Source: a virus
DNA length: 40,748 bases
IMG/VR virus record: IMGVR_UViG_3300044822_000036
Location: 1 to 40,748 of that record
Strand: one strand, 5' to 3'
Shown: positions 15,933-17,670 of the stretch, one piece after another
How the letters are laid out: every line of letters begins with the position of its first letter
How positions within the stretch are numbered: position 1 is the stretch's first letter
Notes under the pieces: generated by a model
The model's input: only the letters and a program-made list of their open reading frames with translations
Databases searched by the model: none
Told to the model about the DNA's origin: nothing
Program-made: the position numbers and the translations under genes

Positions 15933-15971
15933 ACCCAGGCCGTCTACTTTTCAGCCCTGAGGGGGGTGGCG

Positions 15972-16952
15972 ATGGGCGGATGGATCAAGCTCGGGAAGGA
16001 TCTCCCGCAGGATTTTCGGGTGCGCCGAATGGCCCGCGAACTGGTCGCGGGAATGGGTGACACAGAGCGTCACACCGTGACGTCACGCGTGACGCTAGGC
16101 GTGACGCTGGTGCTAGGCGGCCTCGCGCAACTGTGGATGCACGCGGACACGTTCGCCGATGAGGACAACGTGATTCGTGCCTCCCTCGACGATATAGACG
16201 AGCTCACCGGCCTCAAAGGCTTCGGCAAGCTGATGCCCGCCGAGTGGCTTGAGATCCTCGACGCGGATCGCGTGAAACTTCCCGATTTTCATGAACATAA
16301 CGGCTCCGAGGCTCGATCACGGTCTCGACATGCCGAGCGCCAGGCGCGGTATCGCCGCAATCTTGCGTTACGCTCTAGCGTCACGCAAGCGTCACGCGTG
16401 ACGTCTACAAGCGTCACACCCGGGTCACCAGACCAGACCAGACCAGACTTAGACCTCTTAAGAATTAAGACCGCGCTTCCCGAAGCGCGAGACGTGCCTG
16501 CCCCGAAGGTGAAACGCTCCAAACCCCGATCGCCGATCCGAGCGGACCAGGAACCGACCGAAGCCGATCGGGCGTATGCGCTCGCGAAGGGACCGCCGGA
16601 TGCCGACTGGCCGAGCATCTGGGCGGGCTTTCGCGACTACCACCTCGGCAAGGGCACGCTCGCCGCCGACTGGTCCGCCACGTGGCGCACGTGGATCCTG
16701 AATCTCACCACCCGAGGAATGCCCTATGCCCGACGCCCCGTGGACTCCCGCGCAGGACGAAATCCCGTATCCTCCGTCCCCGTCAGCCCGAGCGAAGCCA
16801 CCCGAATCTCGAACGGAGAATCCCTCGAATCCGTCCTCGCGAGCCGTGCGCAAAGACCTCCCGCTCCACAGCCCGGAGTGGTGGGAGGAACGCCGGAGAT
16901 GGCTCGCGACGTACTGTCGCTCGCCCAGCGAGCTCTCCACCGCAGCGGCTGA
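15972..16952 (+). CDS. O-like replication initiation protein, origin inside its gene
   Basis: A 326-residue protein. ATG 15972 follows a run of AGGGGGG; GTG 15966 is possible. N-terminal ~100 residues (GWIKLGKDLPQDFRVRRMAREL ... FHEHNG) look like the winged-helix DNA-binding domain of phage replisome organisers. The middle (residues ~105-160) is Arg/Ser/Thr-rich and encoded by the repeats. Residues ~215-255 (WAGFRDYHLGKGTLAADWSATWRTWILN) match the DnaT/O-type C-terminal module that contacts the helicase system. It would bind the internal iterons and recruit the host replisome. No helicase or loader gene of recognisable type follows. Confidence 0.82.
   Translation: MGGWIKLGKDLPQDFRVRRMARELVAGMGDTERHTVTSRVTLGVTLVLGGLAQLWMHADTFADEDNVIRASLDDIDELTGLKGFGKLMPAEWLEILDADRVKLPDFHEHNGSEARSRSRHAERQARYRRNLALRSSVTQASRVTSTSVTPGSPDQTRPDLDLLRIKTALPEARDVPAPKVKRSKPRSPIRADQEPTEADRAYALAKGPPDADWPSIWAGFRDYHLGKGTLAADWSATWRTWILNLTTRGMPYARRPVDSRAGRNPVSSVPVSPSEATRISNGESLESVLASRAQRPPAPQPGVVGGTPEMARDVLSLAQRALHRSG
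16055..16110. repeat. Iteron cluster 1 (candidate origin)
   Basis: Six GTCAC/GTGAC cores within about 50 bases. They include two tandem 12-mers GCGTGACGCTAG/GCGTGACGCTGG (16087-16110), a 12-bp palindrome CGTGACGTCACG (16076-16087), and a 14-bp palindrome CGTCACGCGTGACG (16081-16094). All lie inside the replication gene. Confidence 0.75.
16365..16470. repeat. Iteron cluster 2, ACCAG tandem repeats and AT-rich segment (candidate origin)
   Basis: Five more GTCAC/GTGAC cores (16380-16428), including an exact second copy of CGTCACGCGTGACG at 16390-16403. Next come four tandem ACCAG-type pentamers (about 16428-16447), then an AT-rich stretch with the inverted repeat TCTTAA-GAA-TTAAGA (16456-16470), a good candidate for the unwinding element. 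Confidence 0.72.
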
Positions 16953-17098: not shown

Positions 17099-17224
17099 AT
17101 GGACCTCGCAGAACGCGTCATCGCCTACGGCACGGTTGGCCTCGTCAGCCTCTGCGGCCTGTGGCTGACGGTGACCGTCCTGCGCGACGTGGTCGAGCTC
17201 GTCCGCCTGGTGCGCGTGCTGTGA
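17099..17224 (+). CDS. Small single-span membrane protein
   Basis: A 41-residue protein from ATG 17099: MDLAERVIAYGTVGLVSLCGL, WLTVTVLRDVVELVRLVRVL. One transmembrane helix covers residues ~9-27, followed by an amphipathic helix. Its stop overlaps the next GTG (GTGA). Function unknown. Confidence 0.55.
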   Translation: MDLAERVIAYGTVGLVSLCGLWLTVTVLRDVVELVRLVRVL

Positions 17225-17670
17225 AGCGGATCCCGCAGGTCAATTCGGGCGAGGAGACGTTCCTGTTCTGGGTGAAGGCCGTGCGGCTGCCGGTCCCGGA
17301 GCGCAATTTCCGGTTTCTCACAGAGCGCAAGTTTGAGATCGATTTCGCGTGGCCGGCGTGGAGGGTCGGCGTCGAGATTCAGGGCGGCATCTGGACGGGC
17401 GGCGCGCACGGGAGGCCCTCGAACATCCTGCGCGATCTGATCAAGCACAACCTGCTGCTCGATGCCGGATGGCGCGTGTGGCACTACACCCCCGATCACG
17501 TGACGACCGGCGAGGCAGTCCAGCATCTGGAACCGATCCTGCGGGCGTGCCAAGATCGCGACGCGAGGGCGCAGGGAGAGTCGAGCCGTTCCGTCCCCCG
17601 GTGCGTACCGTACTTTCCCCCGTCCTCGCCCTGGCCGAGCCGACCGAGCGATGAACCTGCGCCGTTCTGA
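17221..17670 (+). CDS. PD-(D/E)XK endonuclease (DUF559/VRR-like)
   Basis: A 149-residue nuclease from GTG 17221. Key elements: Glu12 in SGEETFLFWVK, KFEIDFAWPAWRVGVEIQGGIWTGGAHGRP with Asp41 and Glu52, then RDLIKHNLLLDAGWRVWHYTPDHV. The usual E-x-K appears as E-x-Q (Gln54). Phage members of this group are placed near replication and recombination genes and are often suggested as Holliday-junction or branch nucleases. The last ~35 residues are Ser/Pro-rich and disordered. Confidence 0.82.
   Translation: MKRIPQVNSGEETFLFWVKAVRLPVPERNFRFLTERKFEIDFAWPAWRVGVEIQGGIWTGGAHGRPSNILRDLIKHNLLLDAGWRVWHYTPDHVTTGEAVQHLEPILRACQDRDARAQGESSRSVPRCVPYFPPSSPWPSRPSDEPAPF

Follow-up and report, generated by a model that had tools for sequence, protein, structure and literature searches.

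The window, by which we mean the whole 40,748-nucleotide stretch of viral DNA analysed here (IMG/VR record IMGVR_UViG_3300044822_000036), carries a replication initiator gene on its plus strand at 15972-16952. An in-frame GTG at 15966 is a possible earlier start; homologs begin with MSGWIK and align with the window ATG at 15972. The encoded protein matches phrog_2509 (E = 9e-16) and phrog_9474 (E = 3e-14), both named 'replication initiation protein', over its N-terminal domain; it has no match in Pfam, Phage_rep_O included, and megablast of the window against phage records gave no match. An AlphaFold2 model divides the protein into a predicted DNA-binding domain (residues 1-141), a linker predicted to be disordered (residues 142-195) and a small helical C-terminal part (residues 197-324). 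Modelled alone, the N-terminal domain reaches a pLDDT of 91 with a winged-helix-like order of helix, helix and hairpin, and its structure comparison returns, weakly, CRP-type winged helices and RepA_N initiators (Z about 5); on this modelling the domain is probably a winged helix. The likeness to the RepA_N plasmid initiators (PDB 5kbj, 4pql, 4pt7) covers model residues 6-105 (Z 4.8, rmsd 2.8, 77 aligned), is accompanied by no sequence match and, at a Z below 8, may reflect only the shared winged-helix arrangement. Structure searches with the whole protein and with its N-terminal part gave no match at E <= 0.001, and a profile search of solved structures with the window protein found nothing. 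Family searches recognised no helicase loader adjoining the initiator gene in the window; positions 17221-17670 encode a function-unassigned protein (phrog_503, E = 6e-24) weakly similar to restriction-endonuclease-like domains.

Iteron clusters, pentamer array and hairpin in the window

Two iteron clusters lie on the plus strand within the gene. Cluster 1 (16057-16105), 85-133 nt inside the gene start, holds six GTSAC half-sites (GTCAC or GTGAC), and cluster 2 (16365-16428) holds five, at 16380, 16391, 16398, 16413 and 16424, together with a twelfth core, GTTAC, at 16367-16371. The eleven GTCAC/GTGAC cores that a preliminary description had counted in two clusters of one gene are therefore there, six at 16057-16105 and five at 16380-16428, all inside the ORF that runs from 15966 or 15972 to 16952. 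So is the identical 14-bp palindrome that it had reported in both: CGTCACGCGTGACG is exact and is found in the 40.7 kb only at 16081-16094 and 16390-16403, two copies against about 0.0005 expected in the window from base composition. Each copy sits within an 18-bp element, at 16079-16096 in cluster 1 and, inverted relative to it, at 16388-16405 in cluster 2. There are 101 GTSAC sites in the window (84 expected), among which only the two clusters bring at least four within 60 nt, the densest having six; when 101 sites were placed at random 2000 times, the maximum was 2-4 in nearly all placements and never more than 5. Against synonymous-codon shuffles of the window gene, cluster 1 is improbable at P = 0.0002 and cluster 2 at P = 0.005. 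Neighbouring cores are spaced by 5-15 bp, more densely than in relatives, and for this reason several of them may be alternatives that are not all occupied at once. At the protein level, cluster 1 encodes a loop whose length varies among homologs together with the first part of the helix that follows it, helix 36-61, and the linker is where cluster 2 ends and the array described next begins.

The GTCAC at 16424 overlaps a run of four ACCAG units (16427-16446), forming on the plus strand a junction and T-free pentamer array at 16424-16446 whose opposite strand reads as 5' TGGTC repeats. An A+T-rich stretch follows on the plus strand (16447-16471), a candidate unwinding element with TCTTAA-GAA-TTAAGA at 16456-16470, and then a stem-loop, CGCGCTTC-CC-GAAGCGCG (16472-16489), which the first reading had overlooked. 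That reading had correctly placed the pentamers and the A+T-rich inverted repeat after cluster 2; it made too much of the latter, since TTAAGAATTAAGA, present in the window, is common to only two relatives, L093 and L112. The GC content around the array is 63-65% in the window itself, and this makes the strand-opening step proposed below the least certain one. Cumulative GC skew, suggested earlier as a check, is lowest at 17152 when the full 40,748 bases are scanned, 0.7 kb downstream, but gene direction also changes near there, so that the minimum lends an origin weak support. A second, shallower minimum (-364) lies at about 32000.

Recurrence of the layout among relatives

The query for homologs was the N-terminal domain alone, which includes neither cluster 2 nor the array, so that the resulting set (50 viral and 2 genome loci) is free of ascertainment by the array. 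A second search with one of the loci found gave 43 named phages, and the survey was made on 62 non-redundant homologous genes, among them those of metagenomic viruses, Olaya, CP2, epsilon15 and Rac YdaU. The first relative, L001, has two clusters at the same places with GTAAC as the core instead. Both clusters are present in 51 of the 62 genes. Eight have cluster 2 without cluster 1, two of them cut at the 5' end (L117, L118); cluster 1 is truly absent from L088, L103, L112, L122, Carin1 and SAC. Relatives lacking both clusters, named in advance as evidence against an origin, were not found, as judged for 60 of the 62 by GTNAC/GTCCGC patterns and for the two exceptions, L082 and L086, by a shifted core, GTAATG/CATTAC, carried in both clusters. 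The density of GTNAC across the 62 genes is 17.7/kb in cluster 1 and 22.1/kb in cluster 2, compared with 1.4/kb between them and 1.2/kb after them, and the excess over synonymous-codon shuffles amounts to z = 14.8 and z = 24.3, respectively, with all three reading frames used. Judged by sequence, the layout is not peculiar to the window phage and recurs in dozens of distant phages and in one Rac prophage of E. coli. In the Olaya/CP2 group (L124-L125, L128-L130, L134, L137) the protein loop that holds cluster 1, DGNAxxVT at gene nt about 148-165, is not the one used in the group of the window; a second cluster has thus been retained there although its place has changed.

What is conserved is the DNA rather than the protein: the same core is read in three frames and yields peptides as different as VTHVRY, CNAVALP and CHAGAL, the clusters exceed the synonymous shuffles, and cluster 2 persists where the ORF stops. 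The last case is that of five relatives whose ORF ends at or inside cluster 2 (134-137 residues, without the C-terminal domain) while the iterons run on past the stop codon; in four of the five the non-coding cluster 2 is followed by array-like GACCT units. The ORF that comes next is an unrelated one. These observations bear out the earlier remark that the coding sequence bends to the repeats.

DnaA boxes are the host's own origin signal. None (TTWTNCACA) occurs in the window, and consensus boxes (TTATCCACA or TTTTCCACA) occur in six relatives, the five short forms and epsilon15, at the position of cluster 1 and/or just after the array: at gene nt about 151-154 and 470-483 in the short forms (L088, L093, L103, L112, L122) and at gene nt 446 in epsilon15 (L126). 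Their density is 0.16/kb in and around the gene and 0.01/kb elsewhere in the same loci. All five short forms have them against 1 of 59 others, a contrast whose P value overstates its significance, the short forms being related to one another. The host DnaA may stand in, in these forms, for functions of the missing C-terminal domain.

The core type varies by lineage (GTAAC, GTCAC, GTAATG, GTCCGC) and tends to change in both clusters together; in epsilon15, phiPSA1 and BUCT711, for instance, both have GTCCGC where others have GTNAC. The share of cores with a central C or G in cluster 1 correlates with that in cluster 2 (Spearman 0.81, n = 47), at 0.80 with GC content held and at 0.90 over the means of 26 related-protein groups, relatedness being corrected by clustering only and not by a full phylogenetic model. 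Such covariation is as expected if one protein reads both clusters. No N-terminal residue could be tied convincingly to core type, the best column reaching z = 3.6 among about 100 tested. Where a GC flank gives the half-site a direction, the spacing of neighbouring cores depends on their orientation, being 13 bp for convergent, 11 bp for tandem and 9-10 bp for divergent pairs (P < 5e-5; 106 pairs, 45 loci), a rule that we read as the mark of polar units that follow one another at one helical turn, with a shift of about 1 bp for each. Between the two clusters no helical phasing was seen (R about 0.3 for all periods examined), and a phased loop gains no support.

In most relatives the last core passes directly into a T-poor array through a junction GTNAC-C(A/T)-AGA, the array units being GACCA, GACCTA, GACAA, GAGAA, GAGGAA or GAACAA. 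Arginine is encoded by AGA in 71 of 74 cases within arrays and in 95 of 1422 elsewhere in the same genes; the array codons were picked by motif, and the count mainly shows how unusual the codons are. The A+T content exceeds the locus mean by 0.11-0.13 at 10-49 nt past the junction (0.18-0.19 in named phages), and the excess drops at 50-69 nt, where stems occur: perfect stems of at least 7 bp lie within 60 nt past the array in 33% of relatives and in 1.8% of control windows, with varying sequence. What emerges as general from this comparison is the T-poor array with its overlying peak of A+T, accompanied in many cases by a hairpin whose sequence varies. Several other readings of the array were tried and dropped. 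The length of the T-free run is no independent evidence (26.6 vs 25.6 nt in synonymous shuffles); a G-quadruplex formed by the array complement (GGTCT repeats) does not have a general role, for GAGAA arrays stand at the same place without G runs; the DnaG primase start triplet CTG is contained in CTGGT and absent from TTCTC; and triplex or H-DNA from purine tracts would suit GAGAA and not GACCA.

A homolog with the same layout, YdaU, is encoded by the Rac prophage of E. coli 442/2. Compared with the K-12-type ydaU, it has only the DNA from the array onward in common (query nt 428-789, 86.5% identity; the two forms are L133:1228-2016 and L140:705-1562), and the N-terminal half of the K-12 type is a DUF1376 domain, where the repeats are different ones, TGTTCAAA/TTTGAACA, and a T-poor tract is again present. 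The DNA-binding half thus travels with its own sites, exchanged as a cassette with the break at the array. Matches to ydaU were found in 1500 of 5426 E. coli genomes, in 676 of them across most of the gene. Rac has an active origin, oriJ (PMC3945230).

A putative origin within its initiator gene

The region is, with a probability of about 0.85, a replication origin inside its own initiator gene. This agrees with the preliminary description, which had proposed an origin with two iteron clusters there, and draws on the match to initiator families and on the retention of the clusters in relatives: by comparison, it is as DNA that both clusters and the array are conserved, in a fixed order and with orientation-dependent spacing, and the two clusters usually share one core type. 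Positions 16057-16489 would then constitute a theta-type origin that lies within the gene for the protein acting on it. Through its N-terminal domain, probably a winged helix, the initiator would bind GTNAC(GC) half-sites in both clusters; adjacent monomers would lie about one turn (11 bp) apart, each about 1 bp towards its GC flank, and would stack along a single face of the double helix, like the O-some of lambda. Cluster 2, whose end coincides exactly with the start of the T-free ACCAG array, would be the working origin; binding there would open the A+T-richer stretch between array and hairpin, and the exposed strand or strands of array and hairpin would guide helicase loading via the variable C-terminal domain. 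Cluster 1, which some relatives have lost or carry in a different protein loop and which can be missing from genes with DnaA boxes, would be an accessory site, serving cooperative assembly, titration or autoregulation.

Among the alternatives, the one that fares best, itself improbable, is that the clusters are operators or autoregulatory sites for the protein or a phage repressor and that the origin lies elsewhere. A protein bound to cluster 1, only 85-133 nt into the gene, could block early transcription, and some relatives have lost this cluster; an operator or autoregulatory role for cluster 1 alone is reasonable. For the region as a whole such a role fits poorly with the position of both clusters inside the gene and not at a promoter, with the conserved distance that joins cluster 2 to a T-poor array, to a peak of A+T and in many relatives to a hairpin, none of which operators need, and with the DnaA boxes that join cluster 2 in some relatives. 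Less probable still is that the initiator gene harbours another kind of site besides an origin, for instance one for partition or recombination, to which the mosaic breakpoint at the array between the K-12 and 442/2 forms of Rac ydaU might point; yet exchange at the array leaves each DNA-binding domain with its own iterons, as in initiator-origin cassettes, and no recombinase or partition gene was recognised beside the initiator.

We consider it very unlikely that selection acts on the protein, the T/V/S-rich loop and the PDQTR linker mattering as peptides and the DNA repeats merely following. PDQTR is common to many homologs, and a 5-nt repeat gives the same cyclic pentapeptide in every frame, but other arrays specify quite different peptides (REEKR, EEEEE) at the same place, in a linker that is predicted to be disordered, and the use of three frames, the excess over synonymous shuffles, the preference for AGA in arrays and the continuation of cluster 2 past the stop codon in five relatives all run counter to it. 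Known restriction enzymes recognise GTNAC and GTSAC, and the clusters could on that ground be sites of a restriction-modification or other DNA-marking system, a reading that we regard as scarcely credible: the sites are dense in two places of one gene only and elsewhere neither strongly depleted nor enriched, the core switches to GTAATG or GTCCGC in both clusters, and the orientation-linked spacing rule implies protein units side by side.

No description of such a layout was found in a full-text literature search, the subscription journals lying mostly outside it, and the split clusters and the repeat array are conserved across a large family of probable lambda-like in-gene origins that has apparently gone undescribed. 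If the origin reading is right, an origin precise to the base can be read from the sequence of dozens of phages in which the gene bears only the label 'replication initiation protein' or 'hypothetical protein'. Xanthomonas, Pseudomonas, Salmonella and E. coli are hosts of some of these phages, and one form of Rac would be covered as well. The coupled change of core in two clusters provides natural specificity variants for working out recognition, and cores, array and hairpin can be altered separately by synonymous recoding, so that strand opening and helicase loading become testable outside lambda.

Comparison with lambda and other origins

The origin of lambda lies in gene O, between the segments for the DNA-binding and C-terminal domains (PMC3349717), as the window origin would lie between the corresponding parts of its initiator. 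The lambda O gene, read directly, has four iterons at gene nt 348-432, then a T-poor tract, ACACAAAAGACACTATTACAAAAGAAAAAAGAAAAGATTA, and then an imperfect palindrome, and the order of iterons, T-poor tract, A+T-rich stretch and palindrome or hairpin is the same in the window and its relatives. The differences are half-sites of about 7 bp at 9-14 bp spacing in place of four iterons of 18-19 bp, a second cluster about 280 bp upstream and, in the window phage, a T-poor tract built of GC-containing pentamers; the lambda half-sites GAGGGA/TCCCTC are confined, in the O region examined, to its one cluster. Palindromic iterons, which had been put forward as a contrast, do not separate the two, for the iterons of lambda are themselves 19-bp imperfect inverted repeats (PMC7466680). 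The earlier term 'O-like' suits the role and the layout and fails for descent: there is no match to Phage_rep_O, and profile comparison of the window initiator with lambda O gave E = 0.93, lambda O itself matching PF04492. An origin of the lambda O type would have a single cluster of four to six iterons of 18-19 bp, and the window instead has two clusters of 5-bp cores. From the shared arrangement, the window origin very probably works like that of lambda, with an initiator that does not appear to belong to the lambda O family.

Closer counterparts are epsilon15, phiPSA1 and BUCT711 (Uetakevirus type), Olaya, CP2, PAN70 and Rac YdaU (E. coli 442/2), which have a homologous N-terminal domain and the same layout of two in-gene clusters and a T-poor array after cluster 2. 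They differ from the window in their array units, GAGAA or GAGGAA, and the epsilon15 group also in its GTCCGC cores. The C-terminal domain is DnaT-like in epsilon15 and likewise in the E. coli relatives. Annotations of these named relatives read 'replication initiation protein' or 'primosomal protein I', and in the records examined of all seven no origin is annotated at the clusters.

The unwinding module of B. subtilis oriC consists of DnaA boxes, DnaA-trios and a DnaD recognition element, DnaD needing two 5'-TnnT-3' motifs (PMC10201434). Here too double-strand sites adjoin a tract of short repeat units, and the array complement holds repeated 5'-TnnT-3' (TGGT, TTCT, TTGT, TCCT), as in the DnaD motif; unlike B. 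subtilis oriC, the units are of 5-6 nt and not triplets, and the initiator is not DnaA. At least two TnnT on one strand are found in the window, as TGGT on the bottom strand of 16427-16446, which says little given that any ACCAG repeat has TnnT. The excess of AnnA/TnnT spacing over shuffles is small (8.2 vs 7.1 per 45 nt), and the GACCTA variant is without it. By analogy, we regard the likeness to the DnaD element as a lead, not a test.

An exact search for three ACCAG units in 2.9 million viral contigs gave 67 loci, of which about 19 are homologs of the window gene and some are unrelated low-complexity sequence. About a dozen others lie in initiators mainly of other families (phrog_9474, 22470, 3992, 270, 678 and 345), and the repeats before the arrays are GTSAC, GTAAC, GGGGGATCGTC, GTCCACGG and others. 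The array follows different iterons and initiators, and for this reason may be an element in its own right, read by something more general than the DNA-binding domain. We put forward only tentatively, and think rather doubtful, the wider proposal that tailed phages in general use a T-poor array of 5-6 nt units as an origin element, one that would act in single-stranded form as a strand-specific signal, independently of the iterons, and be read by a conserved helicase-loading step; if true, it would be the phage counterpart of the DnaA-trio or DnaD recognition element. ACCAG arrays stand right after other iteron types in other initiator genes at L019, L028, L031, L033, L036, L040, L043, L050, L056 and L060. 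At three further loci (L012:6034-6120, L013:2270-2380 and L015:5750-5825) dense GTCAC/GTGAC sites precede ACCAG arrays, either close to where a short ORF without family match ends or past its end, and from their repeat pattern these regions are probably further origins.
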